Shown here piece after piece: positions 26,677-55,425 of a DNA stretch of 64,000 bases. The stretch spans positions 1-64,000 of the forward strand of contig CALXOW010000010.1 in assembly GCA_944390115.1 (NCBI GenBank), written 5' to 3'. A program made the position numbers and the translations under genes. Position 1 is the stretch's first letter. Each line of letters starts with the position of its first letter. This DNA comes from an uncultured Anaerobiospirillum sp. GTDB taxonomy: Bacteria; Pseudomonadota; Gammaproteobacteria; Enterobacterales; Succinivibrionaceae. The notes under the pieces are model-generated. The model searched no databases. It saw only the letters and a program-made list of their open reading frames with translations, and was not told the origin of the DNA.

Positions 26677-28173
<1,497 letters not shown>

Positions 28174-33941: not shown

Positions 33942-33947
33942 GCTTAT

Positions 33948-34282: not shown

Positions 34283-35955
34283 GAGGGGGCTTGGCCTAGA
34301 CTCCGCATTCGATGGTCACTCCGACGCAGGTCTTGCGCTTTAGGCCAAGACTTGGCTCCGTTCACCTAACCTATGACCTGACCTTGAGCGCGGCTGGAGC
34401 TGGTCGCTCCGTACTTGCGGCCGCGCCCACTTCGAGCTCAGCTTGAGCTAAGACCGGTGTCGACTTCGGACTATATACAGTCCTTAGTGCAGTCCAACTT
34501 AGACCTGAGCTGCCAGTCACTTGGTGCCAGACAGACTGCGACATATCAGCCATGAGGCGCGCCGCCCAGACCACAATCCTTGATGTGGACTTCGGAGCTT
34601 TGCTTCAAAATCTATGCGCACGACCCTATTAGATTATGTTAAATTTAGCTAATATATAAGTTAAGCGTGCTCCTTCTATTTAAGACCCGCGCAGAAGTCG
34701 CTGCCTGAGCTGCTTGCCTGAGATTTCTGTTGTCTTCATGGTGCTGTGGCGTCTTGGTGGAGCTCCTGCCCTTATCTTTATAGTCCTACTACCTTAATTT
34801 AACATAACTACCATTATGCGAAGTTCAAAATCAGACTGAGATATGCCTCAAAAACCAAAAGCTCAAGCGTCACCCAGACCACAAACCCAAACCAGCCCAC
34901 ATAGCTGACAGCCCAACCAGCACTCAGCACCAGACCAAGCGCCTAAGACACTCCGACCAATCTCAAGTCACCAACCCTTAAGAACCAAGACCGCCACCCA
35001 GTCCCCAGATAGTCCGCCCATGCTACTTACCCCAAACCGGGTCGAGCTCGTCCCCAGAGCCGGACTAATAACTCAGCCTAGGGTGCAGGGTCATAAGATA
35101 GGTCGAGGTCGTAGGGTCGAGTCCGTACCCAAAGGCAAGCTGGGAGTCGGTCGGTCGGTCTTACTTACGAGCTGAAGGGTTAGCTGAGGTCAACGCCAGT
35201 TCGGTGAACTGGGTCACCGCCAAGGGAAGGTTGTCTTAAGTAGGACCTGAGCTTTTCGGACCTACCCCTATCCTGCCCCACCCTACCTCCAGATCTATTC
35301 ACCCCAAGGTCGGTGCACCTACCGACCTAGCCCATGGCCTGACCAAGCTACCAGAACCAAACTTACCTCGGAACTCAGAGGCTTAGGTCAAAGCTACACC
35401 GACCACGACCACCAAAGTCAGGTTGGCTCGAGCTGACTCTGAGTCCAAAGTCATGCTTCGCCCCGGTGCTCAGCCGTGACCTAGAAAGCCCGCCAACCGG
35501 ACCACCAACATCCTGCACCATGGTGGCTCTGTTGGGTCGCGGTGCCTTAGAGCTGGCAGTAGCGTGATTGCCCCTACGATGACCGTTGCTCTTCAAGCCC
35601 CTCGGTCGCGACCGAGGTTGGCCGAGTGAACCTGTGAGGGCGCTGAGCTGACGCAGATTGAGCTCAAGCTACCTTTGAGACCGACTGAAATGACCGGTTT
35701 TGACGCATCAATCCCTGCAACTACCACCACAAAGGTCAATTCATGCGCCAAAACCCGTTTATGCGTATAAAAGGCTTAAACAAGCCATTTATTGCATTAA
35801 AGTCGTAGCTGTGCCCGCGCTGGCACTACCAGCCCATAGGTCGAGGCTCGGTTCAACCCTGGCTGCACCCTCAGAGCGCTGGTGTAGCAGCGCCGTTTTA
35901 GCAGTCACGCCTCGCAGGTTATTTTCTGCTGGAGCAATTAGTGAGGAGGTCAAGT
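34283..35955. other. Long gene-poor stretch
   Basis: I see no credible gene in either strand. 34600-34680 and 34790-34820 are AT-rich. About 34850-35040 is strikingly poor in G (mostly A and C on the plus strand). 35680-35790 contains a diverged, inverted relative of the first part of the 335-bp repeats (TGCGCCAAAACC..., TATGCGTATAAAAGG). The stretch looks like decayed mobile DNA. Confidence 0.5.
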
Positions 35956-38187: not shown

Positions 38188-38195
38188 GCTATAAT
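38188..38195 (+). promoter_or_regulatory. Promoter of the HigA-like gene
   Basis: TGCTATAAT (TATAAT at 38190-38195, extended -10) lies in an AT-rich stretch 159 nt before the higA-like start. GGTATATGCTATAAT and a following AATTCGATTTTTCAATT could form operator elements for autoregulation, as is usual for HigA; that is inference. Confidence 0.45.
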
Positions 38196-38353
38196 CAAAA
38201 CGCAAAAAGTATAAAAAATTCGATTTTTCAATTTATACGGTGCTTGGTACATATACCAGAGGGCACCACTCCCTAGAAGCGCGGAGCTCTGATCATGAGC
38301 TCCTGATAAGGACGGTTAGAGGCTCTATTGGTCGACTATGGTAGGAGAAACTT

Positions 38354-38905: not shown

Positions 38906-39382
38906 TTAGTCGTCCACGAAATCTAAGGGGCGGCGCCGCATGAGCAGCGGGCGTGCCTCCGGTCCTAAGGCCCAGGTAATGTCGTCCACCTCAAAGTCGT
39001 CAAGCCAGCACTCGTAATACGAATGGGCATCTCTAAGCCAGCCATAGAGCACGTCGTACTTGAGGTCGAGGACCTTGGCCACGATATAGGGCGCGTAATG
39101 CAGCCGCTCTACGGCATCGACGGCGGCAATCTTAAACTGCGGCAGGCTCCCTAAGGACACCTTAGGCACACCCTTGCGAATCTTCTTGGGGTCACTGCTG
39201 GCCATATCGGCCTCATGCCAGCGCTTGCAGCAAGCAAAGAGTCCCTGCTCGGCGACTTTTTGCAAGATAGCTTCGACTTGGCCTTTGTTGAGGCCAAAGT
39301 ACATCGCGAGCTGCCCCTTAGGGGTTCCCTTGAAAGCCAGCGCAACTAAACGAATGCGCTCGGCACCATTAAGCTTTGTCAT
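38906..39382 (-). CDS. HTH-repeat protein, one A-B pair
   Basis: A 158-residue protein made of a single A-B repeat pair. The A unit (residues 4-55) starts GAERIRLVALAFKG and ends QGLFACCKRWHEAD; the B unit (about 75-130) starts LPQFKIAAVDAVERL and ends in the degenerate ECWLDDFEV. Each unit holds a helix-turn-helix-like core (QLAMYFGLNKGQVEAIL; YIVAKVLDLKYDVLYGWL). The start overlaps the end of the preceding gene by 14 nt, with GGAG upstream, so the two are translationally linked. It is the last gene of a four-gene minus-strand operon (44258 to 38906). Confidence 0.8.
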   Translation of the reverse strand: MTKLNGAERIRLVALAFKGTPKGQLAMYFGLNKGQVEAILQKVAEQGLFACCKRWHEADMASSDPKKIRKGVPKVSLGSLPQFKIAAVDAVERLHYAPYIVAKVLDLKYDVLYGWLRDAHSYYECWLDDFEVDDITWALGPEARPLLMRRRPLDFVDD

Positions 39383-41165
39383 CTACCTTCACTCCTACTA
39401 AATTGCGATCCTCTGCGCTAAATTGGCGCAGCCACTGGGCATAGCCCTGCTTGCGCACCCGTCCGTACTTAATGCGTAGCTTACCAATCTTCAGGCCCAA
39501 GACACTTGCCACGTGCGAAACCAGCAGGCCTTGACTGATGACGGCCGTCACGGCAGTCAGCTCAAAGGCCGGTATGCTATCGAGGTCGACATTTAGGGGC
39601 GTTTGTTCTAGTTCCTCACGCAACAAGCTTTGGGCGCGCGCGGAGTATTGATCGACCTTACGTTGCTCCTCACACCAAGCGTAGAGCCCCTTTTCCTGGG
39701 CTTTGGCCTTGAGGCGAGTCCCCAGCTGATAAGGTACTTGCTTATTGCCTTGCAAGGCAGCACCTAACAGCTCAATGCGACGCTTGCCGCTGTAGTTGCT
39801 ATGAGCGTAGCGCTTGAGCAAAGCTGAGAGCTCAGGCGTGATGGGCTCAGTAACTACGAGCGCCGCCTCCGGCCTTTTGAGCCAAGCCTCAACTTGCTTG
39901 AGCTCTAAGCCCAAGACCTCGGCTGCCTGCTGGGGGCTGACCCCTTGCTCCTTAATCACGCGCAAGGCCTCGCGCCGCAACTCAAGAATTTGGTTGAAAT
40001 CAAGTTCCGGCCACTTGCGCTTGCGATCGGCGGCAATCAAGGCCGGAGCATATGGCGACTCTTGGTCAAAGCGCCGCATCTTAGCGCACCAAGCATAGAG
40101 TCCCTGGGTTTGTACCTGCTTTCTCAAGCCAACAACTGTGCCCAGCGCCACCCCAAACAGTTCGAGCACCTCTCTTCTACCCCACTTACCGCTTAAGAGC
40201 GCGGCCATAATATGGATACGAAAGGCACCACTATGCTTGGGTGACCGATGTGGTGTGTTTGGCCTACTCTGAGGCTGTAAGCTACGGCCCCAGGCTTCCA
40301 GCCCTTGCTCTTGTGCCGCTGTCAGCCAAGCTTTGATCTGCTTTTGCGTGCAGGCCAAGGCGCGCGCTACTTGCGCGACACTCATGCCGTCACGCTGCAC
40401 CGCCCACACGGCTGCCTCGATAAACTTGGGGATAGTCGAGAGCTCGACCGCTGGAAGCGGATGGGCCCGCTCAAATTGCTTTTGTTCCTTGGTAAGCGGG
40501 TTTTGTGCGGAACACTCCCGTTCTTGGAGCAACCAGGCTATTAAACTGGGCTGAGGTGTTTTCGTGGCCAGGCGCCAGATATGGTTATGGGAGAGCTGAG
40601 AGCGCGTGGTCAGTTCCTTGACGGTCAATTGGTGGGACCAGTACAGCGCCACAAGAGCGATCCGCCGCTGTGGGCTCAACAGAGCACGATTAGTGGCAGC
40701 ATACTTGCGCTTGTTAGCAGGACGCCGAAAGTTCATAACCTCTTTGAGATTAGGTTTGGTGCGCTGAAGCTGGCTGCACCAAGCATCCCAGCCCAGGTTT
40801 TGGAGCGCCAGCAGCTGCGAGGAAAGCGTGCTTACTGCCACATGAAAGAGCTGCGCGGCGGCGCTAATGGACATACCCGCGCGTACCTCTTGCACAGCCG
40901 CCAAGATGAAGTCTGGAACCAAGGTGCAGTTAACCTTGGGGGCGGGCGCTGGTGACCGAGCCGAAACGTCATTACGGGCCTGTTGGGCCTGACACCAAGC
41001 GCTCAGCCCCTGCTCCTGACAGGCCGCAATCAGTGCCTTAACTTCGGCTTCATCGAGCTTAAAGCTATAAGCCAGCGCGGCGTAGGGCACCCCTGCTAGT
41101 GCGGCCGCCATGAGATCAATCGCTTGGTCCCCAGTTAAGGTGCACTCTGTCTGATTTTGGTCCAT
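39369..41165 (-). CDS. HTH-repeat array protein, four A-B pairs
   Basis: A 598-residue protein consisting almost wholly of eight helix-turn-helix-like units in the order A-B-A-B-A-B-A-B, roughly 70-75 residues each. A units begin SGxxRIxxxAAxLSG and end in QGLxAWC followed by a charged helix (for example AFRIHIMAALLSG, QTQGLYAWCAKMRRFD). B units begin with a short acidic lead, then IPxFxxAAVxAV (IPKFIEAAVWAV, IPAFELTAVTAV), and end QGLEAW. The core in each looks like transposase OrfA/HTH type (VAQVARALACTQKQIKAWL). No catalytic domain, signal peptide or membrane segment is present. The ATG at 41165 is preferred to an upstream GTG because GGTGG precedes it. A role in binding DNA is inference from fold pattern. 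Confidence 0.85.
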   Translation of the reverse strand: MDQNQTECTLTGDQAIDLMAAALAGVPYAALAYSFKLDEAEVKALIAACQEQGLSAWCQAQQARNDVSARSPAPAPKVNCTLVPDFILAAVQEVRAGMSISAAAQLFHVAVSTLSSQLLALQNLGWDAWCSQLQRTKPNLKEVMNFRRPANKRKYAATNRALLSPQRRIALVALYWSHQLTVKELTTRSQLSHNHIWRLATKTPQPSLIAWLLQERECSAQNPLTKEQKQFERAHPLPAVELSTIPKFIEAAVWAVQRDGMSVAQVARALACTQKQIKAWLTAAQEQGLEAWGRSLQPQSRPNTPHRSPKHSGAFRIHIMAALLSGKWGRREVLELFGVALGTVVGLRKQVQTQGLYAWCAKMRRFDQESPYAPALIAADRKRKWPELDFNQILELRREALRVIKEQGVSPQQAAEVLGLELKQVEAWLKRPEAALVVTEPITPELSALLKRYAHSNYSGKRRIELLGAALQGNKQVPYQLGTRLKAKAQEKGLYAWCEEQRKVDQYSARAQSLLREELEQTPLNVDLDSIPAFELTAVTAVISQGLLVSHVASVLGLKIGKLRIKYGRVRKQGYAQWLRQFSAEDRNLVGVKVDDKA

Positions 41166-41183
41166 GTTAACCACCATTCTCAC

Positions 41184-42014
41184 TTAGCAGCGCGTATTCG
41201 GTGCTGCTTGGAGCCAACTTGCCACCTCGGCCGTACTGACGCCCAGGATGGTGGCCACCTTAGCCAGGTCACGCTCCTGCTTTAATACCGCCTGCACCGC
41301 TGCCTCCCGTAAGGCGGCCTCCGCTGCGCAACTAACCTCGGGATCGGCGCACTCACGGCAACTAGGGTGTCGCTCGAGGTCTTGGATCCGCATGCGCTCA
41401 CACCACAGCAACAAACCTTGCGCCTGAGCTTGCCGCAGCAGACGGTGCAGGTAGACTGGGCTGGTGTGAAAGAGCGTGGCCACCTGTTGGTCATCGCCTA
41501 AGCAGCCACTTAAGCACGCGGTCACCATCTTGATACGTCGGGCGCCGCTATTGGCCTGATTGTTTTTGGTGACATGATTAAGCACAGTTTCAGGCACGCA
41601 GTGCGCGCGTAAGTGCTGTGCCCAAACCATAATGCCTTGATTGTGGGCGGTGACCGCTGCCAGCTCCAGCTCAAAGGGCTTAAGTCCAAAGAGCTGGGCC
41701 GCCTCAGTGACACTCAAGTGCTGGAGCGTAACCTCAGTAACAGCGGTGATGATAAATTCCGGCGCCCGCCCACAATTGACGCAAGGCTTAGGTGTCGCCC
41801 CAATCTGCGGAGTAAAGCAGCGCGCATCGCGGGCGCGCTGGACTTGGCACCAGACGGTGAGACCTTGACGGCGCGCAGCGCTGTGCAGCTTCTTGACCGC
41901 AAAGGCCGTGGTGTGAAAAGTAGCCGCGACCTTCTCGGTGGCCACCCCAGCACTTAAGGCGGCCACGATTTGGATCGCCTCATCACCGGTCACGGGATTA
42001 ATCAGCTGCACCAT
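41184..42014 (-). CDS. HTH-repeat array protein, two A-B pairs
   Basis: A 276-residue protein with units A (TGDEAIQIVAALSAG to QGLTVWC), B (APEFIITAVTEV to QGIMVWAQHL), A (SGARRIKMVTACLSG to QGLLLWCERMR) and B (ALREAAVQAVLKQ to VASWLQAAP). The last B unit lacks the QGLxAW end. A cysteine cluster (CRECADPEVSC) precedes the last unit. AGGAGG 6 nt before ATG makes a strong start. It is the second gene of the operon: 15 nt after the 42030-44258 gene and 18 nt before the next start. Confidence 0.85.
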   Translation of the reverse strand: MVQLINPVTGDEAIQIVAALSAGVATEKVAATFHTTAFAVKKLHSAARRQGLTVWCQVQRARDARCFTPQIGATPKPCVNCGRAPEFIITAVTEVTLQHLSVTEAAQLFGLKPFELELAAVTAHNQGIMVWAQHLRAHCVPETVLNHVTKNNQANSGARRIKMVTACLSGCLGDDQQVATLFHTSPVYLHRLLRQAQAQGLLLWCERMRIQDLERHPSCRECADPEVSCAAEAALREAAVQAVLKQERDLAKVATILGVSTAEVASWLQAAPNTRC

Positions 42015-42029
42015 CTTGACCTCCTAGGA

Positions 42030-44258
42030 CTACGACAACATCGGGATTAGCGCGCGTGACACCAAGATGCGCTCGGGAATGGTAAAGTGCCGCGCCCAAT
42101 TTACAAAGCCCAGCTCTTGTACCTCTTTAAACCAGGTTATGATTTGCTCGGGGGTTAGGCCCAGCACTGTCGCAACCTCGGTTATGCTCTTACCTTGGCA
42201 TAAGACGGTGTACACGGCGCACAGCGCAAAAGACCGCACCTTGCTGCAATCGACCTGAGGGTCACCTGACTCCTGTGCCACGAGCTGATAGTGGTTTTGG
42301 CGATCAAAAGCGCGCATTTCCTCACACCAGGTATAGAGCCCCTTAGTGCGGGCGGCGACCAAGAGCGCACGCACCGTCTGATAGCCCACATGAAAGCGCA
42401 GCGCCACCGCCCAAGTCGCGCCAAACTCTTTACTGAGCAACGCTGCCAGTATGTTAATGCGACGGCGGCCACTGTTATAGGCACGCTCGGTCCGCTGGGG
42501 CACTCTACCCTCGGCCAGTACGCTAAGACGCCACGATTCTAAGCCCTGCTCCTTTGCCGCCTCACACCATACGCGCACTTGTTTGAGTTTCACGTTCAAG
42601 GTTGCCGCTACTTGCTTCTTGCCCATAGTATGAGTCAGCACCGTCTCCACCGCCGCCACCTTAAACCTAGGTAAGCATGACAGGTCGGGCTCTGGCAGCG
42701 GATGCGCCGACTCAAAGGCTAATAGTTCGGGAGTGACGCCTTCGTATTGGTCACGGGAGCGTTGCGCAGCACACCACGCAACTAAGCCCTGTTTGCACGC
42801 GGCACGGGCCAAGGCGCTCACGCGGGCCGCATTAATTTCAAGTTCTTGCGCCAATTGCTGCGCACTCTTCATACCTTCCAGGTAATAAGCAACTATGGCA
42901 ATGGCGCGGGCGCCACTGGTCGCACGGCGCGCGTCACCGCGCCTAGTAGGCCCTTTGGTACCTGAAGTTGCTTCTGAACTTACGGAAGTGTCATCCTTGA
43001 TAGGCTCAGGGGCTACCAGCTCGGGGGCGACTAAGCGCAGTTGCTTGGGATCATGAACTTGCATCCAAGCGTTAAGCCCTACGTCCTGAGCTACGAAACA
43101 CCAAGCATCAATGTTTTCCTGCGGCTGGCCTAATACCGCTGCGACTTCCGCCATAGAGTAACCTTGATTGAGTACGGCATAGGCCGCCGCGAGCTTAAAA
43201 ACGGGTACTTGGCTCAGGTCAAAATCAAACTCGGACTCACGTTGTAGTGCCCGGTCGGCCGCGCGCAGGGCGGCGCACCAGGCAAAAAGGCCTTGCTCTT
43301 GCGCCTCTTTAAGAAAGCGCTCTAAGGTGCTACGCCCGACATGCAAATACGTGGCGGTGCGGGTTAGGTTGCCGTACTTACCGCTTAAGAACTGCGCCAA
43401 CATCGTGATGCGGCGCGTGCCGCTATAGTGCAGGGTATCTTGTGACTCAGGGTGCAGCGGAGCCAATTCTTGGGCCCAAGCTGAGATCGTCTCTGGGGCT
43501 AAGGTTAAGGCGGCGGCAATTTGCTCCACACTAAGCTCATGGTGCATGAGTGCGCGCAGCGCATCGTGCTTGAAGGCGGGGATAGCCGCAAAGTCCGGCT
43601 CAGGGAGCGGATGGGCCGTCTCAAAGGCCAGCATCTGAGCCGAGCGGCGCCGTTTGTGATCGTGAGCGCGCATCTCTTGGCACCAGGCGCACAGGCCCAT
43701 CTTTTGCGCCCGCTGTAACTGCGCACGTAAGGACCGCACCGGCACGCATTGGTCCGCACTGATTTGCTCAAAGGTCTTGGTGCCGCTCAATAAAGCTGCG
43801 ACCATGGCAATTTTGTGCACGCCACTAAAGTGCGTCAAGCGATAAGAGACAGGCTCACTGGGGGTGGCCGCAACTTGAGCTGACCACGAATCTAAACCCA
43901 TAGCTTGGGCTTGCACGAGCGCGGCACTAAGCTTAGTGGGGATCACATTAAAGATAGCCGCCGCTGCGCCCGCATCCAGGCGCTGTGACAAAACCGCGCT
44001 GACGGCAGCAATGAGAAACTGAGGTAAGGCCGCGTAATCTACCGGCAGCAGTGGGCGCGCAAAAGTAGCGGGACTACCTACACGCTGCGCTATGCACCAT
44101 TCCATTAAGCCCTGCTGCTCACATTGCGCCCACAAGGCTGCGACCGTGGCTTCAGGCACGGCGAGAGTGGCAGCAATTTCGGCCTGCGACATACCGGCCT
44201 GCATCGCTGCTACGATGTTAATGCATTGTGCTCCGCTCAGCTGTGTCTCTGTCGCCAT
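42030..44258 (-). CDS. HTH-repeat array protein, five A-B pairs
   Basis: The longest array: 742 residues with ten units in strict A-B alternation. The A units start near residues 8, 148, 290, 440 and 600. Typical A starts are SGVHKIAMVAALLSG, SGTRRITMLAQFLSG and SGRRRINILAALLS; typical ends are MGLCAWCQEMRAHD and KGLYTWCEEMRAFD. B units start LPQFLIAAVSAV, IPAFKHDALRAL, VPVFKLAAAYAV, LPRFKVAAVETV and VRSFALCAVYTV. Between A and B, a linker such as LAFESAHPLPEPD recurs in several pairs and in the 39369-41165 protein. A short Gly/Thr-rich spacer divides pairs 3 and 4. The ATG at 44258 has GAGGTG upstream. It is the first gene of the operon. Confidence 0.85.
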   Translation of the reverse strand: MATETQLSGAQCINIVAAMQAGMSQAEIAATLAVPEATVAALWAQCEQQGLMEWCIAQRVGSPATFARPLLPVDYAALPQFLIAAVSAVLSQRLDAGAAAAIFNVIPTKLSAALVQAQAMGLDSWSAQVAATPSEPVSYRLTHFSGVHKIAMVAALLSGTKTFEQISADQCVPVRSLRAQLQRAQKMGLCAWCQEMRAHDHKRRRSAQMLAFETAHPLPEPDFAAIPAFKHDALRALMHHELSVEQIAAALTLAPETISAWAQELAPLHPESQDTLHYSGTRRITMLAQFLSGKYGNLTRTATYLHVGRSTLERFLKEAQEQGLFAWCAALRAADRALQRESEFDFDLSQVPVFKLAAAYAVLNQGYSMAEVAAVLGQPQENIDAWCFVAQDVGLNAWMQVHDPKQLRLVAPELVAPEPIKDDTSVSSEATSGTKGPTRRGDARRATSGARAIAIVAYYLEGMKSAQQLAQELEINAARVSALARAACKQGLVAWCAAQRSRDQYEGVTPELLAFESAHPLPEPDLSCLPRFKVAAVETVLTHTMGKKQVAATLNVKLKQVRVWCEAAKEQGLESWRLSVLAEGRVPQRTERAYNSGRRRINILAALLSKEFGATWAVALRFHVGYQTVRALLVAARTKGLYTWCEEMRAFDRQNHYQLVAQESGDPQVDCSKVRSFALCAVYTVLCQGKSITEVATVLGLTPEQIITWFKEVQELGFVNWARHFTIPERILVSRALIPMLS

Positions 44259-44421
44259 GATCACCTCACTACCTATAACCCCATTGTAGCAAGGTCAAGA
44301 AAGTCAGCGGGCAAACCGAATGCTCAAATGTGCGCCCCGGCGCCTTCTCTCACGCAAATTAAGAGCCGCGCCCCGACCGGCGCTGAAGGAGAGGCTCCTC
44401 ACCAGGCGCCCACTCGCGGTG

Positions 44422-45090
44422 CTAAAAGGTGTCAGCGTCGTCCGACCAATCCAGCACCACCGTCTTATGGCGATTACCTGCCTTATCGAGCAGTTTCAAC
44501 GGTCTGATATAGGCACGTACCTCGGGGGTACAGGAGTTAACCCAGTTGATATAGCCTTGGGCCTCAACCTCTTGGGCTAATTGCACCACCTTATCGGGAT
44601 CGACCGCAAAGAGCTCAGCGGCATAGTCTGGCGCAATCTCATGGGTAAAGACCGCTGCCATCACCGCCAGGCGCCAGGCCTCACTTTCCCAGAAGTCCAC
44701 GGTGAGACTTGGGTCCGTGCTCGGGTCAAGCTTCGCATTGCGTGCCTCTTGCTCCTTTAAGTTCTGAGCCTTAGGCGAGGCCTGGTCCAACTTGCGCTGC
44801 TCAAAGACCCAAACGACGATGCCCATGGCCTCGCTCATATCCAAGATAGCGTTCACATCGCACGAGAACAGGCGCTTGAGCTCACTTTTGCTGGGCAGCT
44901 TGGTGAGGTAATAGCCCAAGATCTTAATGGCGCGATCGCCGCTACGCCTCAAATTGCCCTTAGGGATATCCAGCGCTAAGGACCAGCCGGAGGTATTAGG
45001 CAGGCGCCGATGGGTGCCGATGTGGTAGTCACGAGCTAAGGCTTCCGGCGTCACCTGCTCCTCAAATTTGGCTTTAGGAAATTTGGCCAT
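44422..45090 (-). CDS. HTH-repeat protein, one diverged A-B pair
   Basis: A 222-residue protein. After a 45-residue basic N-terminus (MAKFPKAKFEEQ) it has one A unit (SGDRAIKILGYYLTK to MGIVVWVFEQRKLD, with Cys of the usual AWC replaced) and one B unit (SEAWRLAVMAAVF to QGYINWVNSC). Divergence from the other units is the strongest in the cluster. It ends about 160 bp before the four-gene operon start and is divergent from the 45160 gene, with which it shares a 69-bp intergenic region. The ribosome binding site is weak. Confidence 0.75.
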   Translation of the reverse strand: MAKFPKAKFEEQVTPEALARDYHIGTHRRLPNTSGWSLALDIPKGNLRRSGDRAIKILGYYLTKLPSKSELKRLFSCDVNAILDMSEAMGIVVWVFEQRKLDQASPKAQNLKEQEARNAKLDPSTDPSLTVDFWESEAWRLAVMAAVFTHEIAPDYAAELFAVDPDKVVQLAQEVEAQGYINWVNSCTPEVRAYIRPLKLLDKAGNRHKTVVLDWSDDADTF

Positions 45091-45159
45091 GGCAGTAATT
45101 CCGCTAAAATGAGAGAGAAAACGAATTTTGATAGCAATCCCGCGTTACAGGAGCTAAGT

Positions 45160-45636
45160 ATGGGGCGTCAGCGCACTTATCAGGTACCAAGATTAACCTC
45201 AAAAGAGCGCGCCCACTTACGGGCAATGAGCACTGATGACCACGAAAGTGAACTTAAGCGGCGCCGCGCCCAAATTTACCTTTTAGCCGCCGCTGGCTGG
45301 AGTAATGCTGAGATCGCGCATAAGCTTGCCATCACTTGTGTCACGGTAATCAAACACATCAAACTGTGCCAGCACCAGAGCGTGATGCAAGCTATGACGA
45401 CCCCATCTCGGCGCGGGCGCCGCTACAAAATCTCCAGCGCCGCGCGCCATTGGGTGCGCACGGTGTACCTCAATGACAACCCTACAGACAGTTTACGCCC
45501 CGTACGCTGGACCATGCGCAGCTTACATGCCTACATTACCACGCATGCTAAGGAGCACGGCTTTCCGGAGCTTGCCGATGTGTGCCTGGCGACGATCTGG
45601 CATATCGTGCACCCAGACACTAAGCCCACGGCTTAA
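45160..45636 (+). CDS. IS630-type helix-turn-helix protein (no DDE domain)
   Basis: A 158-residue, very basic protein that resembles the N-terminal HTH of IS630-family transposases: LTSKERAHLRAM, then RRAQIYLLAAAGWSNAEIAHKL and a second helix VTVIKHIKLC, and a winged second HTH (WTMRSLHAYITTHA). The catalytic DDE half is absent and no remnant follows, so it is either a transposase remnant or a domesticated DNA-binding protein. The ATG at 45160 with AGGAG is preferred to an upstream frame extension. It is the only plus-strand gene within the HTH-array cluster. Its stop codon overlaps that of the 45633 gene in the shared TTAA. Confidence 0.75.
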   Translation: MGRQRTYQVPRLTSKERAHLRAMSTDDHESELKRRRAQIYLLAAAGWSNAEIAHKLAITCVTVIKHIKLCQHQSVMQAMTTPSRRGRRYKISSAARHWVRTVYLNDNPTDSLRPVRWTMRSLHAYITTHAKEHGFPELADVCLATIWHIVHPDTKPTA

Positions 45637-47276
45637 TCACGCGGCGTAAGCCACACAAAGTCTTCTTCACTGATACCGGCGCCCTTAGCCCAAGCCTCCA
45701 GCCCCAGCTCCTTGGCTTTTTTGACCCAATAAGTTAAGGTCGCCCCGGACAGGCCAAAGATCGTTGCGGTCTTATTAACCGACAGGCCCCGGTTGAGGAC
45801 GGCATCAACCGCCGCCAGCTTAAAGGCCGAAATCTGGGCAAAAGCGACCTCAGGCTGCTTTTCCTTTTGCTCGCGCGCCAGCAAGTCCGCTGCACCCAAG
45901 TACTCTTTGTCTAAATTGCGCAAGCTAAGGCACCATGGCAATAAGCCCTCTTCTCTAACCTCACGCAGCAGCACTGAAACAAAGGACACCGACACATGAA
46001 AACTCTCGGCGAGCATGGCGTTGGACATAAGGCCAGTCGTTGCTAGGGCGATGATGCGAATCTTACGATCGCCGCTGACCTTCATACCACGGCCATCGCG
46101 CTCCTTGACGACCAGATCCGCGCCTGACGCCTTGGCACGGGCTTCCTTACGCGCCGCCGCTTCAGCTGCGGCAGCCGCCTCTTGGGCCTCACGCTCCTTG
46201 GCTTCCTCTTCAGCCTGAGCCTGAGCGCGTTTCAGTTCACGCTCTTTGAGCCACTGATAGATGATAAATTGTGGAATATCATGGGCATCGCTGACGGTAT
46301 TCACTGACACCTCTTGGCGCTCGATGCGGCTCAACAGCTCGTCCTTTTCCTCCTCGGTGAGCTCATCGTCATCCTCCTCTGAGGCTTCGTTCTCTTCCGC
46401 CTGAGCCTCAGGGGCCGCCGCTGTGCTTGCAGGCAGCTCTAATTCCATATCATCGAGGTTTCCGACATCGCCCCAGTTGTCAGTGGTGCAGTCATCCACC
46501 ACCTCAGCCTCATCCTCCTCAGGTACCGGCTTACCGCGCAGCGGCTGCGGCACGATAGCTTGCGCCAGCTCCTGGGTCGTAGGCATCTTGACCTCGGCCA
46601 CTTGCGCTTGCTCTTGAGCTACTTGCGCTTGGGCGGCACGGACGGCAGCTTGAGCCTCCTCTTCAGCGGCACGCTCCGAGGCCGTAAGCGCGGCCACTCC
46701 CAGTTTCGAGCTTAAATCCTCGAGCACAGAGATATTGGTTTCTGGGGTTGGGAAGGCCATGGTGGCAGCAGGCGTAACTGCTTCAGCTGGAGCGCTCGCA
46801 GGTGCAGAGCTTTCCGTTGATGGGACATTCGCACTCTCAGGGGCAGCGGAAGTGGTGTCAACAACTGTAGCCTCTGGAACGGCATTGGCCACCGTGTTTT
46901 GCGCAGCGGCTGGGCTGGAGCTTTCAGGAACAGCCACCGGGCTTGGTTCGGCCGGGGCTGTCACTGCCGCGTCAGCTGTGGTTGCTGCCGGGGTTTCAGT
47001 CTGAGCAACATTGGCAGCTGCGGGAGCGGGAGCAGCCGCTGCGGACGGAGTGGCCGTCCCTATGTGGTCGACCACGTAGTAGGCCTTGCCACTTAAGTTC
47101 AAGAACTCAGGGGTGAGGCACTGCGCCTCATGATAGAGCTGGCCTTGCTCGCGCAGCCACAGATAGACGGTGGGCGGATTGATGTGATATTGGGCGGCGA
47201 CCTCATAGACCGAAAGGTCGTGGTTAACTAATTTTGAAACCAGCTCAGCCTTGAGCGCGTCAGTTACCTGCTGCAT
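45633..47276 (-). CDS. HTH-repeat protein with long Ala/Pro/Glu-rich linker
   Basis: A 547-residue protein. An N-terminal HTH (residues 2-45: LVNHDLSVYEVAAQYHINPP) is followed by about 230 residues of low complexity rich in Ala, Pro, Glu, Ser and Val. Then come an acidic patch (EEDDDELTEEEKDEL), another HTH-like unit (VNTVSDAHDIPQFIIYQWL), a charged coiled-coil stretch (AEEEAKEREAQEAAA), and at the C-terminus one complete A-B pair (SGDRKIRIIALATTG to EGLLPWCLSLRNLD; ISAFKLAAVDAVL to LGLEAWAKGAG). The ATG at 47276 has AAGGA 6 nt upstream. The layout (two end domains joined by a flexible linker) suggests a bridging DNA-binding protein; this is inference. Confidence 0.82.
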   Translation of the reverse strand: MQQVTDALKAELVSKLVNHDLSVYEVAAQYHINPPTVYLWLREQGQLYHEAQCLTPEFLNLSGKAYYVVDHIGTATPSAAAAPAPAAANVAQTETPAATTADAAVTAPAEPSPVAVPESSSPAAAQNTVANAVPEATVVDTTSAAPESANVPSTESSAPASAPAEAVTPAATMAFPTPETNISVLEDLSSKLGVAALTASERAAEEEAQAAVRAAQAQVAQEQAQVAEVKMPTTQELAQAIVPQPLRGKPVPEEDEAEVVDDCTTDNWGDVGNLDDMELELPASTAAAPEAQAEENEASEEDDDELTEEEKDELLSRIERQEVSVNTVSDAHDIPQFIIYQWLKERELKRAQAQAEEEAKEREAQEAAAAAEAAARKEARAKASGADLVVKERDGRGMKVSGDRKIRIIALATTGLMSNAMLAESFHVSVSFVSVLLREVREEGLLPWCLSLRNLDKEYLGAADLLAREQKEKQPEVAFAQISAFKLAAVDAVLNRGLSVNKTATIFGLSGATLTYWVKKAKELGLEAWAKGAGISEEDFVWLTPRD

Positions 47277-47599
47277 ATCACATCCTTGTTCGAGGTTAGG
47301 CGCAAAGTCCAATTGTCCTTAATTTAGCCGTGAACCCCGGCTAAATCAAGTCTTTTGGCCCACCCCGTAGGTGCGGCAAGTCCCAAGGCTGAGGCGCAAG
47401 CTTACTCTTCACTCAAGTCCTTGACCTCAGGGGCGGGCGCTACCGCTTGCCACTCAGGAGCTGGCCCGGTCAGGGTAAAGCATGGGGCGGGCGCCTCGGC
47501 CGTGACCTGGCCCAAGATGAGCGATAAAGCCCCTACTCACCGCCCAGCTGAAGGGCGGCCCCTGGGGCGTGGGCTGCAAGAGGCTTTTAGCTGGTGCGA
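47277..47599. other. Spacer with two copies of the dispersed 12-mer
   Basis: No credible gene. The segment contains GGGGCGGGCGCT at 47430-47441 and a one-mismatch copy at 47484-47495 (last base C for T). It presumably carries the promoter of the 47276-45633 gene; no clear boxes are seen. Confidence 0.45.
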
Positions 47600-48283
47600 T
47601 TACTTAAGGGCGCGTGTGATGAGTTCGCCCACCGAGTCGGCGACCTCTGAGGCTAGGCTGCTGACGGTGTCGTAAGCGTCACTGGAGGCAGAGCCCATGG
47701 CCTCAATCCCCTTGCACGCGGTATTGCTCAAGGAGTTAATGCCATCGCACACAGTGTTGGCCAGACTGTCGCTGTCAGTCTCGTTTGAGAGCAATTTGGC
47801 AGCAGTAATGGCGGTTAAAGTGGCTAAGGCTAAACCACCGCCAATGCGGGCGGCCTTGCCTGCCTTGGGGTTGAGCAGAAGGGCGGCGGCAAAGGAGGCA
47901 GCGGCGATAGCAACTTCACGCACCTGGTAGCTGTTAGCCTCGCCAGTCACGCACCAGTTGGCAAAGTGCTCGCAGTTGTTGAAGACCAGCGAGTAGTGGT
48001 CTTCGTGCTCGCGACTGAGGGCACGCTCCACGATTTCTTCAGGCGAGAACTTGGCGTCATCATGCACGAGAACCGTGACCTCATCGCCCTCGGCAAATTC
48101 CTCCAGGCTGTAGATCGTGACGCCGGTATTGAGCAGATAGGCCACCACCTTACCGTCGCCGATGTAGATGCCGTGATGCTGGTACAAAGGGCGGTGGGCC
48201 ACGACGTGCATGCCCGCCTTCAGCTCACTCTCAGATACGCCATTACTGCTGTCCAGCAGATCGGAAATTGCCGTGGAAATCAT
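47600..48283 (-). CDS. LRAT-domain protein (NlpC/P60 superfamily), paralogue 1
   Basis: A 227-residue protein with the LRAT fold, a thiol acyltransferase/hydrolase related to NlpC/P60 and the H-REV107 phospholipases. The histidine motif YQHHGIYIGDG is at residues 34-44 and the catalytic NNCEHFANWC at 102-111 with nucleophile Cys104. The C-terminal part has a hydrophobic helix (VAIAAASFAAALLL), a second one (GGGLALATLTAITAAKLL) and then repeated amphipathic motifs (SLANTVCDGINSLSNTACKG). Lipid or thioester substrates are likely; the true one is unknown. It lies 68 nt after a close paralogue on the same strand, so it is probably co-transcribed with it. AAGGAAGAG lies upstream of the ATG at an unusually long spacing. 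Confidence 0.85.
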   Translation of the reverse strand: MISTAISDLLDSSNGVSESELKAGMHVVAHRPLYQHHGIYIGDGKVVAYLLNTGVTIYSLEEFAEGDEVTVLVHDDAKFSPEEIVERALSREHEDHYSLVFNNCEHFANWCVTGEANSYQVREVAIAAASFAAALLLNPKAGKAARIGGGLALATLTAITAAKLLSNETDSDSLANTVCDGINSLSNTACKGIEAMGSASSDAYDTVSSLASEVADSVGELITRALK

Positions 48284-49716: not shown

Positions 49717-52700
49717 TTAGCTAAAAGTTCCGATCAGCGTCATGGTCTTGCCGTCGCCTTTGCTGGGGGCTTTGAGCTTATTGCTGACCGATGGAAATTG
49801 CGCCGGGGTGACCTTAGGCTCAGGTTTAGTTGTGACCTTAGGCTCGGCACTACTTGGCTTTGGCCCTGGCTTTGGGCCTTGCGGGCCGCCTGGGGTACGG
49901 GTTTGGTTTTGGGCTGGTTTTTGCGGCTCGTGCTCCTTGTGGGCGCCTAAGTCGGCGACACACTTGAGCTCGCCCATGCTTTGGTCGGTGCAGCGGGCTA
50001 GGCGTGCCACATCGCCTGGATCGCAATAGAGGATGTGCAGGTGCTGGCGCGCGCGGCTAATGCCGGTGTAAAAGAGCTCCTTGCTCAGGCCGTCGGCTTT
50101 GTGATCGCCGATGATGAGCGCGACCTTGTCGGCCTCCGCACCCTTAAATGAATTGATGGTGCTCAGGCTGATGTGGTCGTTATCAACACTAAAGCGCTCC
50201 TTGTAGAAGGCGTTGTTCTCAGAGAGCCGCACGTGGCTTAACGCCGCCTCCGCTTTCACTGCAAGATCGGTGATGATTTCGCGATCGGAGTGGCGATAGA
50301 GCAGCGCCGACTTCGGGTCCTGCTCAAAGCCCAGATGCTCAATCCAGCTGGTGAGCTGGTCGATCTCCTGCTTTAAGGCTTGATTTGATGGGGTCTGACT
50401 GAGCTGACGCTGGCGATCCTTGAGATCGCTCTTTAAGAGCTGGACGATTTGGCGCTGATGACGGCCCATCAAATCGGTGCCAATGCCTAAGTAGGCGGCG
50501 AGCATACGCTCGTAGAGGCGCTTGGCACTTGGGGCATATAAGGCTAAGACCGCCGCTGCAATCAGCTTGGCGATGCGCTCCCACACTGTCGGTGCTAATG
50601 CCGTCAGGCGTAGGAGCTGCAAGGTGCTATTTTCACCATCATCGCGCGGCTTGATGCGCCCGAGCGGCGCTCCGCTCGAGGAGCGCTCGGTGAAGGCGAC
50701 ATTGTAGTCGTGGCACAGCGCCGCCAGACTAATCGGATAGCACTTGAGGGTGCTCTTATCGGGCACCGCGTAATCATCTAAGAAGCTCAGCGGCGCCAGG
50801 CTTGCCTCTAAATTTAAGGCGGCGCGGCTCTCCTGCAAGGCCTCGTTGATGAGCAAGGCCTCGACCAGGAACGCCTGCTCACTCGGTCCCAGCTGGGTAC
50901 TCTTCTTGGGATCCGTAAAGGCGGCCGTAAGCTCGGTCAGTTCGGCGCACAGGCGATTTTTGCTCTCGGCATAGCGCGGTCCCAGCGCCCAGCTTAAGTA
51001 CTCGTTGTGGTGGTGGGCAATGAGATAGTGCTCGCGACATAAGCGCTGCTGGAGGTGGTAGAGCACCTGCTCGGCACTGCTTAAGAGCTCAGGACCGACA
51101 GCAGTTAAGACGCGCTGCTCTAAGCTTTGCATCATTAGGGCAGTTTTATGCATACGCCCAGTGTGGCGCATCATGAAATCAAGGTACACCAGCGGGGCGC
51201 TGTGTGCGGCTAATACCGCCCATGAGGTGGTGAGCTCATCGGAGAGATTGCGGCGCTCACTGCGCGATAGCGGAGCAAAAATGGCGTGGGTGCCATGATT
51301 TAAGGCGCAGAACTTATTGACCTGCTGCCACATATCCTCGAGTACCGAGAGATAGTAAATGCGGCTACTTGCTTCCTTGGTGTTAATGAGTTTGAGCGCG
51401 CGCTGATAGGACAGCGCATTCTCGCTTAGGCGATGAATGGTGAGCGCACCTAAGATCTTGGCTTCATCGGTCCCGACTTCATCTAAGCTGCGCCCACTAA
51501 GACGTGCGTCGCTCAAATCATGGGCCTGAGGGGTAGTGCGTCCGGAGAGCTCAGTTAGGTCGGGCTCCAGCGCCTCATTGAGCCACTGCTCGGAGGCGGC
51601 CTCTTGCTCCTTACTGCTTGCCGCAAAAGGCAAGGCAAAGAGCTGGCTTAAGGCGTTGAAGCTCAATAAGGTGACCGGGAGCGGGCGCCGTAATTGGAAT
51701 TGAGCTGTGACCTCGCCTTGGACAAAGGCGCGCGCTAAACGCGAGCATTGGGTGCGTACCAGCTCACTGCGCAAACGCTCTAAGGTAAAGGCCGCCATAT
51801 TAAAGGCGCTAGGAGAGGTCTCAAAGGGCAAATTAAGGCGTTTGGCCTTAGTCTTGAGATTGCCTTGCTCTTGGGCGATCGCATCCCACATCTGCTCGAT
51901 GCTCAAGGTGCCCTTGATGCCGCTGTGACCTAAGGCTTGACGGGCTTGATTCTGCTCGCGCTCCCAGCTCATATAGCGCGTGAAGATCATATTGATGTTG
52001 TAGCCAATCTCCTCGGAGGTAAAGGCTTCGAGCTTATAGCGATGCACAGCGGTGGCAAGACCAGGATTTAAGCGGTACGACAGCGGCAAGACGCGCACGG
52101 TGACGCGCTGAGTGCGCTCTAATTCTTGCAGCTGCGCCATTAAGGCTGAAGACAGCTCTAAGCAGCATTGGGTCAGCTCTTGGTTGAGATCGCGCCCTGC
52201 CAAGGACTGGGCCTTAACCGCGCGCAGCTCGTCTTGGGTATTTAGGAGTTGGCTTAAAGCTGAGATCGCTTGGCTTTGCGGCGAGCTTGAGTCGGGGGTA
52301 CTGCGCTTAACCGGCTTTGGCTCATGCGGCTTGGCGGTAATCAGGCCTAAGTTAACCCCGGAGCTGGTCTCAGCCGTGCTGCTGGCATTAAGTGGGCTTA
52401 ACTGCGGCAAGACCTTGTTGAGGTTAGTTAAGAGCAGGACCAAACGGCTTAAGGAAGCGGTGGTGTGATAGAGGTTTTGGCAGAAGTCGGCAAAGAGATA
52501 GCAGCAGCGCAGCTTGGTGCAGCGGGTTAAGAGCTTGAACAAAAACTCTGGGCGCACGTCTTGCGCCTCATCCACCATCACGATATCAAAGGAGCTTAAA
52601 TCAAGCTCATCTAACGCCTCGGGAATACTGAGGGCGCACACAGTGAAGCGGCTTAAGTCCAAGTTGACTACATGGCGCTTGAGACGCTCCATGATAAAGG

Positions 52701-55425
52701 CGCCCAAGGTCAAATTGTAGTGCAAGATGAGCACGCGCGGCGCGCGCCCTAAGACCGTCATGCCTTCAAGCCCTGCGGTCGGCCCGCCTTGGCTTAAGGC
52801 CCCACGCTCTTGCATCAAGGTGACGTAGCTGTAGACCGCCTTTTCGACCAAGACCTGGGTACGACCTGAACCTAACACACCTAAGACTAAGCCTAAGGGG
52901 GCGGGATTTTGCACGGCGGTCAGCTGCAGGGCATCTAAATGGACGCAGCTGTACTCACGCAGTGGGGCTTCATACTGGGTGAGATTACCTAGGTTATAAG
53001 CCCCCCGGCACGGGTGGGCGCTGGGGTCCACATCGGGGCGAATCAGGCCTAACTTCGGCTCAAGGCGCTGCTCACTTAGCCCCGGACCGCGCTGTAAAAA
53101 CTCACGCCGGGCGCGCTCATAGGCATCCTGACCCCAGCCCAAGAGCAAATGGCGCTCACTTTGGTCATTGAGGATGGAGCGCGGGCGCGCCAGCGACTCT
53201 GTACCCTTGAGGCGCTGCAAGTTATGCTCAATGCCCAAAATCTTGAGTTTATTAGGCTGACCGACCACCGGCTGGAGCTCAACATCGGCCACATCATGCG
53301 ATGGCTTAGCTTTAATGGTGAGCTTGACCTTGTACGGCGCCTTAATGTTATTGAGGTTAGGCCCCATGATAATGCTCTCATGGGTCTCGATGTACTCAAT
53401 CTGGGCCCCTTGTGGCAGGTAGACTTGGCCATCGTAGGCCGAGCGCTTGCCCATAAAGCCATCGAGCTCCTCTTTGCGCGTGACCAAGCTGCGCAGCTCG
53501 GCGCTCGAGTTTAAGATCGGACGGATCTTAAGGCGATCAAAAAGCGACGGGCGATGCTCTAATTGCTCCAAGCCCCAGAGCTGATAGGACACATCATCGC
53601 CCTTGAGCAAGGCGCGCTCATGGCGCTCGTCGATAAGATAAGGCACACGTTGGTCTTGAGCCAGCCACTTAAGACCATGACGGCCGCCTAAACCTCCTTG
53701 GCCAGGGTTAAATAAAGACAGGGCTGAGCGCTCGGGCGAGCCAATCAGGCCCATTTCGCCGCCCACGAAGATACTTTCATGGGTGAAGTTGTGCTCTAAG
53801 TACTCACAGGTGGTACGCAGTAATTCCTGCTTGGGCCAGCGAATATGAATCGAGGCTTCACCTTCGACCACATAGGTCTTTAAGGTCGAGGGCGGAAAAA
53901 TCGCGTGGACATTACGCTCATTGACGTAGAGGTAGCATTGCACTACATGAACGTACTGGAGCAAGTCGCGGTAAGAGTAGATATTGCCCGGCTCGCAGAA
54001 TGAGCGCGCAAAGTGCTGGCGCAGCTGGACGCAGTACTGCTTGCGCTGATGCACCAATTGCGGGTTAGCGCGCAGCTCGTTATAGGTCTCGCTGCACAAG
54101 AGCACGATGATGACGCCGCGTCGGGCGTTGGCCACCACTAAAGGCAGATGTTGGCCGTTGAGCCACAGATCGTGGAATACCACATCACCCCGACCAAAGC
54201 TCGGGGCATAGAACTCATGAAGCAGGCGCGCTGGGAGCGAAACCAAGGAGCCGTAATTTAATCTGCGCTCATGCTTTAAGGTACTAAGCGAGGGGGCTTT
54301 AGGCTTACCTTGCAGGGCACTGGCTAAATTAGCCGCCGCGCCTGAGTCCTCAGCTTCTTGGGCCGCTTTTTGCTCAGCCAAGGCCTGCAAGACCAAGGGA
54401 TCATCGGCCTTGAGCTCTTCTAATAAAGCTTCACCTAAGAGCGACTTGATGGTGAGCTCAGGCTCGCCCGAGTGGGCCCAGCTCTTGGTGGAGCTAGGTA
54501 AGACCACCGTGCCCTTATTATCGGATTTGGCCGCCAGCTCCATTAATTTGCGCGCAAAGAGGTCAGCTAGGCCACTAGCCTGACTTTCCCCTAAGGCCCC
54601 GACATTTAAGGCGTCGTCCTCGTCTTTCCCGGCAGCGGCGCTAAAGGAGTCGCTGGTGAAATTAGGCGCGACCTCAGGGGCGGCGGTGAGCTGGGCAAAG
54701 GGCGCATCGTTAAAGGTGGTATTGGTAAAGGCCTCGAAGGGATTCTTGGCGTAAGCGCCCCAGGCGCCGGTGGCACCCCAGCCGCCATCGCTTGAGGGCT
54801 TACGCGGAGCCACTTCGGTGCTGGTGGCACCAGTGGCGGTAGCAAGTTCGGTGGCTAAGAGGGTAGGTCCAGCGGGCACCCCGCCGATCACTTGGGGCGT
54901 GACATTAGGCACCGGGGCGCCCACGCGCAAGGTAATGGAATTGATCGTAAAACCGACGGTACGGGCGTTGTGCTCTTGATAGACCTTAAGTAAGGAACGC
55001 GCACGCTCCGAGGCAATTTCGGTGGTGCTAATCTCTAGTGTCGCCGCCGCATATTTAGGGCTTGAGCTGCCATTAGTACGGGCAGGCTCGCTGGGACGGC
55101 CAGGCTCACTTGTGCGGCCAAGCTCACTGGTGCGACCAGGCTCACTTGCACGGGCAGGCTCGCTTTTACGGTGTAGCGGCACTGCGACCATCGTAGGACC
55201 ACTAGGAGCAGCAGGCTCAGGGGCGGGTGCGGGCGCTTGGGCACGCTTTTGGCGCGATAAGACGTAGGCACGGGCGGTATTAGCACTGACCTTATTAGCG
55301 CGCAAGGAGCTCGCGGTACGGCTGAGATCAGATGATGCGCTGTCCGAGCCGCCTAGGGCAGAGCGTGGGGTGCCAACTGGCCCCCATAAGCTGCGATTGC
55401 CCTGAGAAAAGCCCGCTTGCGCCAC
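49717..55425 (-). CDS. Giant UvrD-like superfamily I helicase with degenerate NERD-like region
   Basis: A 1902-residue protein. The first 390 residues are low-complexity (Ser, Ala, Pro, Gly, Thr), including repeats of SEPGRTSE. A segment at about 390-470 (DVVFHDLWLNGQHLP, VVANARRGVIIVLLC) resembles the NERD nuclease-related fold but lacks its usual Asp and Lys. Helicase motifs follow: P-loop GVLGSGRTQVL near 849 (Arg-Thr where GKT is usual), Walker B VMVDEAQDVRP near 950, motif III-like LFADFCQNLYH near 977, SYRLNPGLA further on, motif V INSFKGAEADKVAL and motif VI FYTGISRARQHLHIL near the C-terminus. A 100-residue Pro/Lys-rich tail ends it. Start GTG has AGGGGG upstream. It probably unwinds DNA in repair or defence, but P-loop change and size are unusual. 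Confidence 0.85.
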   Translation of the reverse strand: MAQAGFSQGNRSLWGPVGTPRSALGGSDSASSDLSRTASSLRANKVSANTARAYVLSRQKRAQAPAPAPEPAAPSGPTMVAVPLHRKSEPARASEPGRTSELGRTSEPGRPSEPARTNGSSSPKYAAATLEISTTEIASERARSLLKVYQEHNARTVGFTINSITLRVGAPVPNVTPQVIGGVPAGPTLLATELATATGATSTEVAPRKPSSDGGWGATGAWGAYAKNPFEAFTNTTFNDAPFAQLTAAPEVAPNFTSDSFSAAAGKDEDDALNVGALGESQASGLADLFARKLMELAAKSDNKGTVVLPSSTKSWAHSGEPELTIKSLLGEALLEELKADDPLVLQALAEQKAAQEAEDSGAAANLASALQGKPKAPSLSTLKHERRLNYGSLVSLPARLLHEFYAPSFGRGDVVFHDLWLNGQHLPLVVANARRGVIIVLLCSETYNELRANPQLVHQRKQYCVQLRQHFARSFCEPGNIYSYRDLLQYVHVVQCYLYVNERNVHAIFPPSTLKTYVVEGEASIHIRWPKQELLRTTCEYLEHNFTHESIFVGGEMGLIGSPERSALSLFNPGQGGLGGRHGLKWLAQDQRVPYLIDERHERALLKGDDVSYQLWGLEQLEHRPSLFDRLKIRPILNSSAELRSLVTRKEELDGFMGKRSAYDGQVYLPQGAQIEYIETHESIIMGPNLNNIKAPYKVKLTIKAKPSHDVADVELQPVVGQPNKLKILGIEHNLQRLKGTESLARPRSILNDQSERHLLLGWGQDAYERARREFLQRGPGLSEQRLEPKLGLIRPDVDPSAHPCRGAYNLGNLTQYEAPLREYSCVHLDALQLTAVQNPAPLGLVLGVLGSGRTQVLVEKAVYSYVTLMQERGALSQGGPTAGLEGMTVLGRAPRVLILHYNLTLGAFIMERLKRHVVNLDLSRFTVCALSIPEALDELDLSSFDIVMVDEAQDVRPEFLFKLLTRCTKLRCCYLFADFCQNLYHTTASLSRLVLLLTNLNKVLPQLSPLNASSTAETSSGVNLGLITAKPHEPKPVKRSTPDSSSPQSQAISALSQLLNTQDELRAVKAQSLAGRDLNQELTQCCLELSSALMAQLQELERTQRVTVRVLPLSYRLNPGLATAVHRYKLEAFTSEEIGYNINMIFTRYMSWEREQNQARQALGHSGIKGTLSIEQMWDAIAQEQGNLKTKAKRLNLPFETSPSAFNMAAFTLERLRSELVRTQCSRLARAFVQGEVTAQFQLRRPLPVTLLSFNALSQLFALPFAASSKEQEAASEQWLNEALEPDLTELSGRTTPQAHDLSDARLSGRSLDEVGTDEAKILGALTIHRLSENALSYQRALKLINTKEASSRIYYLSVLEDMWQQVNKFCALNHGTHAIFAPLSRSERRNLSDELTTSWAVLAAHSAPLVYLDFMMRHTGRMHKTALMMQSLEQRVLTAVGPELLSSAEQVLYHLQQRLCREHYLIAHHHNEYLSWALGPRYAESKNRLCAELTELTAAFTDPKKSTQLGPSEQAFLVEALLINEALQESRAALNLEASLAPLSFLDDYAVPDKSTLKCYPISLAALCHDYNVAFTERSSSGAPLGRIKPRDDGENSTLQLLRLTALAPTVWERIAKLIAAAVLALYAPSAKRLYERMLAAYLGIGTDLMGRHQRQIVQLLKSDLKDRQRQLSQTPSNQALKQEIDQLTSWIEHLGFEQDPKSALLYRHSDREIITDLAVKAEAALSHVRLSENNAFYKERFSVDNDHISLSTINSFKGAEADKVALIIGDHKADGLSKELFYTGISRARQHLHILYCDPGDVARLARCTDQSMGELKCVADLGAHKEHEPQKPAQNQTRTPGGPQGPKPGPKPSSAEPKVTTKPEPKVTPAQFPSVSNKLKAPSKGDGKTMTLIGTFS

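Follow-up and report, generated by a model that had tools for sequence, protein, structure and literature searches.

Alternating helix-turn-helix arrays with transposase kinship lie beside the dif site in one Anaerobiospirillum clade

The window analysed here, a stretch of 64,000 nucleotides from an uncultured Anaerobiospirillum sp. (contig CALXOW010000010.1), carries six minus-strand genes (g1 to g6) built from two types of helix-turn-helix (HTH) unit, A and B, which alternate strictly along each protein (Table 1). The initial annotation counted 1, 4, 2, 5, 1 and 1 A-B pairs in these genes, 14 in total, and open reading frames (ORFs) together with unit hidden Markov models (HMMs) return the same numbers. 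Each unit is about 58 residues long, and the pairs are joined by mostly short linkers. The genes g4-g3-g2-g1 form the single tight operon that had been described, with a 15 bp gap, an abutting junction and a 14 bp overlap. The frame of g6 runs past 47276, where the region was first taken to end. The N-terminal part of its product holds a weak HTH (residues 22-55; 11.9 bits with the unit HMMs), followed by an acidic linker rich in alanine and proline, a second weak HTH at about residues 318-362 and the A-B pair.

Table 1. Features of the array locus and its surroundings; positions are those of the window.
Feature	Position	Strand	Description
Array gene g1	38906..39382	-	158 aa, 1 A-B pair (ORF and unit HMMs)
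Array gene g2	39369..41183	-	604 aa, 4 A-B pairs (ORF and unit HMMs)
Array gene g3	41184..42014	-	276 aa, 2 A-B pairs (ORF and unit HMMs)
Array gene g4	42030..44264	-	744 aa, 5 A-B pairs (ORF and unit HMMs)
g5	44422..45090	-	222 aa, one divergent A-B pair
g6	45633..47312	-	559 aa, single A-B pair at the C-terminus
Chromosomal dif site core (XerC half, spacer, XerD half)	34797..34822	-	Within the shared element 34785-34826
Type I restriction-modification operon hsdR-hsdM-hsdS	23842..29529	+	Neighbour; all three genes present
SF1 (UvrD/RecD-like) helicase	49717..55425	-	1902 aa
HTH protein, similar to the N-terminus of IS630 transposases	45109..45636	+	175 aa; no catalytic domain detected (Pfam, NCBIfam)

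The pair count from the unit HMMs is partly circular, because the models were seeded with 30 A-like and 24 B-like motif sequences that include array proteins; judged by their position, three of these B seeds belong to A. Less circular support comes from profile A3, which comprises 33 pairs from the window's own genome (G000) and from two of the other ten Anaerobiospirillum genomes (G001 to G010), G009 and G010. The profile holds 13 of the 14 window pairs, the divergent g5 pair being left out, and none from G003. It recovers the left-out pair (E 1.9e-19) as well as 14 pairs in G003 (E 3.4e-16 to 1.4e-47). In g5, the A and B labels are assigned by position, and the best score of either unit comes from the B model, which has the first g5 unit among its seeds.

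Structure prediction folds an A-B pair into two HTH domains (predicted local distance difference test, pLDDT, 94), which agrees with the original description of the units as HTH-like. A and B units are homologous to each other, and their nearest kin are transposase HTHs. The Pfam models HTH_28 and HTH_Tnp_1 match 23 and 16 of 33 pairs, respectively (E<=0.01), which places the units among transposase-type HTHs; HTH_psq is also among the Pfam matches. The kinship to the N-terminal HTHs of IS3- and IS630-family transposases is strongest for the B units. No DDE catalytic domain was detected in any of the six array genes with Pfam or NCBIfam. An enzyme catalytic domain of any kind was likewise absent from the six genes in these two databases, from the four scanned with PADLOC and from the five scanned with PHROGs, and all matches correspond to HTH models or to the HTH parts of longer models; the absence of a joined catalytic domain had been claimed from the outset. 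Foldseek against the PDB gave no match at E<=0.001. The VIA-align rows cover almost solely the B half of the pair, the A half being barely probed. Kinship to the 'CAP repeat' of PDB 8vd6 (E 8.7e-10) was rejected, and this entry was taken as an engineered protein, since the one paper found to name it is on protein design.

A non-coding element of 40-42 bases is common to the array loci of G000, G009 and G010 and corresponds to the chromosomal dif site. Its half-sites, ACTTCGCATAA and TTATGTTAAAT, match the proteobacterial XerC/XerD motif table of PMC2731167, and the dif pattern has one match in the window against 0.01 expected. At up to two mismatches, exactly one dif-like site was found in 9 of the 11 genus genomes and none in the other two (reversed control, 0), a single-copy count that is to be read with the fragmented state of these metagenome-assembled genomes (MAGs) in mind. 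The site is free of mismatches in the four genomes that carry arrays (G000, G003, G009 and G010) and has one or two in the other five. From dif to the nearest array gene, the distance is 4.1 kb in G000, 3.8 kb in G009 and 4.5 kb in G010; in G003, dif and arrays lie on separate contigs. Skew over 500 bases, obtained for seven of the nine sites, gives a mixed picture. TA skew drops across all five minus-strand sites; the sign of the GC skew flips in G009, G010 and G007, and in G000 and G003 this skew merely deepens. Among the plus-strand sites, G001 mirrors the minus-strand pattern, whereas G006 does not (TA). No convincing family of repeated DNA sites was found as a target of the arrays, the 31.5-39 kb interval included.

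Several further features were observed around dif. A second exact copy of the XerD half-site (TTATGTTAAAT) at 34634-34644 (+), about 150 bp away and in the opposite orientation, forms an inverted repeat with dif. Gene-poor spacers surround the site, of about 4.4 kb in the window (33942-38353) and about 4.7 kb in locus L025 (1083-5745). Blastn of the window spacer aligns nothing beyond the dif element in G009 and G010; one contig of G003 has two additional short stretches in common with it. In a related species, flagellin-like genes form a long run near the dif site (L090 12961 to L091 15244, G007:C17), and the one copy examined contains both Flagellin_N and Flagellin_C.

With profile A3, arrays were found in 4 of the 11 Anaerobiospirillum genomes, which form a single clade, and in none of 46 other genomes of the family. 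The profile matches 14 pairs in G000, all at the window locus, 14 in G003, 6 in G009 and 18 in G010; g6 homologues are present in all four. In a class sample (369 genomes) and a phylum sample (398 genomes), both including G000, solely single-HTH matches were found outside G000, in eight and two genomes, respectively, one of which carries the same frame at 11 places. These scans scored at most 11 and 10 candidates per genome and returned 11 and 10 of the 14 pairs of G000, so that an array would still show. A scan of genome contigs with two g6 peptide patterns yielded three relatives among 74 candidate stretches, all from Anaerobiospirillum MAGs (two uncultured and Candidatus A. stercoravium). 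The five-pair protein had no tblastn match in plasmids and phages, and none of 66 viral-contig candidates matched g6. The neighbouring SulP transporter is 93-98% identical to that of G000 in the other array genomes and 75-78% identical in three array-less genus genomes; four genus genomes gave no match. Because of this genome distribution and the SulP identity pattern, the arrays mark one clade, without sign of recent mobility.

The large superfamily 1 (SF1) helicase of the locus follows the same distribution. Among 41 genomes searched, the four with arrays, and no others, contain near full-length orthologues (67-90% identity); in the remaining seven of the genus, matches are partial in six and lacking in one. 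The search row for the G009 helicase counts two stops, yet an uninterrupted frame of 1873 codons exists. The co-occurrence of arrays with the giant helicase and the LRAT genes, which the initial annotation proposed to check, was seen for the helicase and not for the LRAT genes, which the loci searched contain in just two genomes, G000 and G003. The helicase pattern is not independent evidence, because the four array genomes are one clade.

The array genes are under purifying selection. The ratio of non-synonymous to synonymous substitution rates (dN/dS) is 0.16, 0.27, 0.19, 0.21, 0.08 and 0.27 for g1 to g6. The G003 copy of g3 contains an in-frame stop; open array frames reach 1393 aa, with up to 16 HTH units per protein. 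In a tree of 50 pairs, g2 pairs 1-4 group position by position with pairs 1-4 of a four-pair array of G009, two of these four joins being strongly supported. In G010, whole arrays have been duplicated, and positions correspond among the a, b and d genes. The units inside one protein are old and divergent. Positive selection was rejected as proven, with dN/dS <1 in every pooled class of orthologous sites; the sole case of pN>pS is one small segment of an internal duplicate in G009 (pN 0.31, pS 0.14, on 1.5 synonymous differences).

Sequence change between orthologues is unevenly placed within the HTHs. The comparison of G000 with G003 shows 71 changed residues among 388 in helix 3, where an even spread of the differences over each HTH would give 51.4 +/- 5.6 (p 0.00055). 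Variability by column is higher for helix 3 than for helices 1 and 2 taken as one group (p 0.005), helix 3 has a dN/dS of 0.29 versus 0.17 elsewhere, and column entropy is highest at the outer positions of helix 3. To this extent, the suggestion that hypervariable positions fall in the recognition helices held. The change is unequal among units, six of the 28 carrying 5-8 helix-3 changes. Within the internal duplicate of the G009 g6, 17 of 32 positions differ in the helix-3 segments versus 1 of 24 in helices 1. Five LysR orthologue pairs from G000 and G003, which are the sole control and slow overall (5/294 residues differ), changed at 1 of 70 positions of the corresponding 14-residue helix (arrays versus LysR, Fisher p 5e-5); a sixth LysR match, in G003 alone and without partner, was left out.

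The repeats of TALE proteins differ at two specificity positions. They are near identical and about 34 aa long (PMC4363659), in contrast to array units of about 58 aa in pairs that are 23-36% identical; a TALE-like identity was rejected on unit length and divergence. BurrH, STAR and pTERF, like TALE, consist of tandem repeats with known or presumed DNA binding (PMC11417379); the term HTH is absent from the main text of that paper, a systematic survey of DNA-binding repeat proteins. The Drosophila protein Pipsqueak (Psq), with other HTH transcription factors that derive from transposons, resembles the arrays in having several transposase-like HTHs per protein, four in Psq (PMC10379775 and PMC10027918). 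Psq is a eukaryotic (GA)n-binding protein and carries a BTB domain, for which the array genes have no Pfam match, whereas the arrays are bacterial, reach 16 HTHs in alternating A-B pairs and occupy several genes per locus. IS3 and IS630 transposases, whose N-terminal HTHs (HTH_28, HTH_Tnp_1) are the closest sequence kin, differ in that the arrays are tandemly amplified, are kept in place in the chromosome and have no detected DDE domain. BrxA of BREX also carries several HTHs in a defence locus with a helicase or unwinding component (PMC12839542); its two or three HTH/wHTH modules are dissimilar, in contrast to the 2-16 alternating units of the arrays. No BrxA model at E<=0.01 was among the matches listed for the 10 window proteins scanned with PADLOC (four of them array genes; for one protein, 25 of 44 matches), and no BREX gene was found among the window proteins scanned. 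TnsD, the target selector of Tn7-like transposons, likewise has several HTHs; its TniQ core and its place in a transposon were not seen for the array genes (Pfam; weak TnsD match in g6, E 0.56).

The open-access literature searched, from which subscription journals and preprints are largely missing, yielded no published family whose HTHs alternate in arrays of such length, and within that scope the initial view of a layout without described system stands. Neither literature joining Anaerobiospirillum, genome and helix-turn-helix nor a direct precedent for dif as a hotspot was found there. Tandem HTH proteins are known; what appears to be new is the unit number, the strict alternation, the several genes per locus and the faster change of the DNA-reading helices than of the core, for which no precedent was found.

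The arrays may be multivalent, transposase-derived DNA-binding proteins of a terminus-proximal locus that handles mobile or invading DNA, with the helicase as candidate effector; we place this reading at a probability of about one third (0.32). That the array proteins bind DNA is by itself likely. In this reading, the arrays are non-catalytic HTH chains under selection that grew by duplication of an A-B pair with kin among transposase-type DNA-binding domains, each protein being a string of 2 to 16 predicted DNA-binding beads. Each protein would most likely contact several DNA sites simultaneously, with a degree of sequence preference, and would tether, coat or mark the bound DNA. The targets probably turn over from one species to another, as for proteins handling mobile or invading DNA, since the core helices stay and the parts of the HTHs that read DNA change. 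In HTHs, both helix 2 and helix 3 face the DNA, and the variability pattern therefore fits target turnover. The large SF1 helicase is proposed to act on array-bound DNA; this partner, the class of target and DNA binding itself are what we infer, whereas alternation, kinship, selection, the variability pattern, the location and, as a prediction, the fold are shown.

A number of observations weigh against this reading. Fast change is not specific to the recognition helix, because helix 2 changes as fast: dN/dS for A/B units is 0.28/0.38 in helix 2 versus 0.26/0.32 in helix 3, so that the early suggestion is borne out only in part. The helix after the recognition helix of B also reaches 0.28. Column entropy agrees, with 2.78 for helix 2 versus 2.70 for helix 3 in A, 2.33 versus 2.78 in B and 2.89 in the last helix. 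In the G009 g6 duplicate, 9 of 14 positions of the B helix-2 segment differ, and the recognition helix is unchanged in 4 of the 10 g4 HTHs. At six DNA-facing positions per helix, picked from general HTH geometry after the per-position table was known, dN/dS is 0.50 and thus below 1. The variability may reflect relaxed constraint on exposed parts, because helix 2 and the post-B helix vary as helix 3 does. The LysR comparison involves one slow family. The recognition helices carry almost no charge (+0.03 and +0.01 on average per residue), the net charge of some units is negative and reaches -4 (five LysR recognition helices range from -2 to +1), and an overall acidic composition is seen in g6 and in the two largest arrays of G010. 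The joint presence of array, helicase and g6 is confined to one clade. The adjacent type I operon says little, because N6_Mtase homologues are found in 10 of the 11 genus genomes; methylase co-occurrence was rejected as evidence of a link on the same ground. Two further points bear on the initial idea that the arrays could read long DNA sites. The model of the 744-aa g4 product has flexible joints (predicted template modelling score, pTM, 0.30), and the pairs are divergent, with 23-36% identity to the first row (its orthologue excepted), and are not homogenised within a protein. A more specific form is improbable, namely a protein-only, clade-private system in which long alternating arrays would recognise composite sequences of mobile or invading DNA and pass them to the dedicated giant SF1 helicase, with specificity shifting through fast turnover of the DNA-reading helices and array duplication. 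Its logic would then be that of zinc-finger arrays against transposons, transferred to bacteria.

The position of the arrays would also suit a terminus organiser. MatP is such an organiser, and the arrays could bind around dif and bridge or condense the terminus in its manner, or assist FtsK/Xer resolution. The 3.8-4.5 kb between dif and the nearest array gene in three genomes, the single dif-like site in nine of eleven genus genomes and the inheritance of the arrays with the clade point in this direction. However, five genus genomes have a dif-like site without array match (G001, G004, G005, G006 and G007), the DNA-reading HTH parts are not conserved as would be expected for a factor with fixed chromosomal sites, and the 31.5-39 kb interval holds no convincing repeated site family; we regard this role as unlikely. 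A role in transcriptional regulation or xenogeneic silencing of the accessory genes nearby, in which the multiple HTHs would provide avidity, is improbable to a similar degree: the predicted HTH fold, the acidic linker of g6 and the precedent of Pipsqueak, whose four HTHs belong to a transposase-derived family (sources cited above), are consistent with regulation, whereas six array genes at one locus exceed the needs of local control, and the array HTHs diverge between orthologues while five LysR regulators from the same two genomes barely do.

The charge data raise a different explanation, in which the units no longer bind DNA and serve as scaffolds between proteins. The near neutrality of the helices, the acidity of some units, the acidic proteins g6, G9_b, G10_a and G10_c, and the similar change of the exposed helices 2 and 3 would agree with it. 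LysR helices, however, are equally neutral, and entropy peaks at the outer helix-3 positions, although a protein-binding face would look the same; we regard scaffolding as rather improbable. Decaying insertion-sequence remnants in tandem by chance would account for the transposase HTH kinship, the G003 in-frame stop and the weak units. This explanation is largely refuted by purifying selection (dN/dS 0.08-0.27) together with the retention of arrays position by position across species, and open frames of up to 1393 aa also argue against it, leaving it very improbable. Modular DNA binding, if it occurs, would make the arrays a natural scaffold of a new kind with which to read long DNA sites. With the arrays beside dif and within a restriction locus, two questions become testable, namely how bacteria domesticate non-catalytic transposase parts and whether the dif neighbourhood hosts conflict systems of its own.

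The locus is a variable accessory locus at the terminus. Around dif lie hsdRMS, genes for AAA-ATPase/PDDEXK-like proteins, a HigA-like gene, the arrays, two LRAT genes and the SF1 helicase. The initial annotation mentions neither dif nor the type I operon and makes no link to transposases. The type I operon at the same place in G003 is a different allele (hsdR and hsdM 26-27% identity), and the next two genes are 99.8% identical. This swap of distant hsdR/hsdM alleles between two close species spans L092 5458-9578 and window 23842-28173, the compared flanking genes being 94-99.8% identical. The hsdS of G009 is just 35% identical. In G010, the C-terminal part of the helicase, g6 and an hsdR lie in a row on one contig, and an hsdS lies beside an array on another. 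Homologues of the 175-aa HTH protein were found beside arrays in G003 (78%) and G010 (42%), and none in the G009 loci searched.

Minor features were also observed among the neighbours. The two LRAT-domain genes occupy 47600-49542, and one has a long repetitive tail rich in alanine and serine. An 875-aa ABC/UvrA-like ATPase at 56676-59303 (+) matches the PADLOC mad3 model (E 1.8e-60). A 300-bp direct repeat, 92% identical, lies at 32140-32439 and 33947-34246, downstream of a pair of genes for AAA-ATPases. The region 3574-20001 (+) encodes several proteins with lengths of about 500-800 aa, and the five scanned (3574, 9190, 11071, 15657 and 18085) have no Pfam match; they look paralogous, since one G009 ORF matches five window ORFs. 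Four HigA-like antitoxin copies lie near the G009 type I operon (L079 5486-6822). A HEARO RNA (RF02033, HNH endonuclease-associated RNA) is located at 1-144 (-), at the edge of the window.

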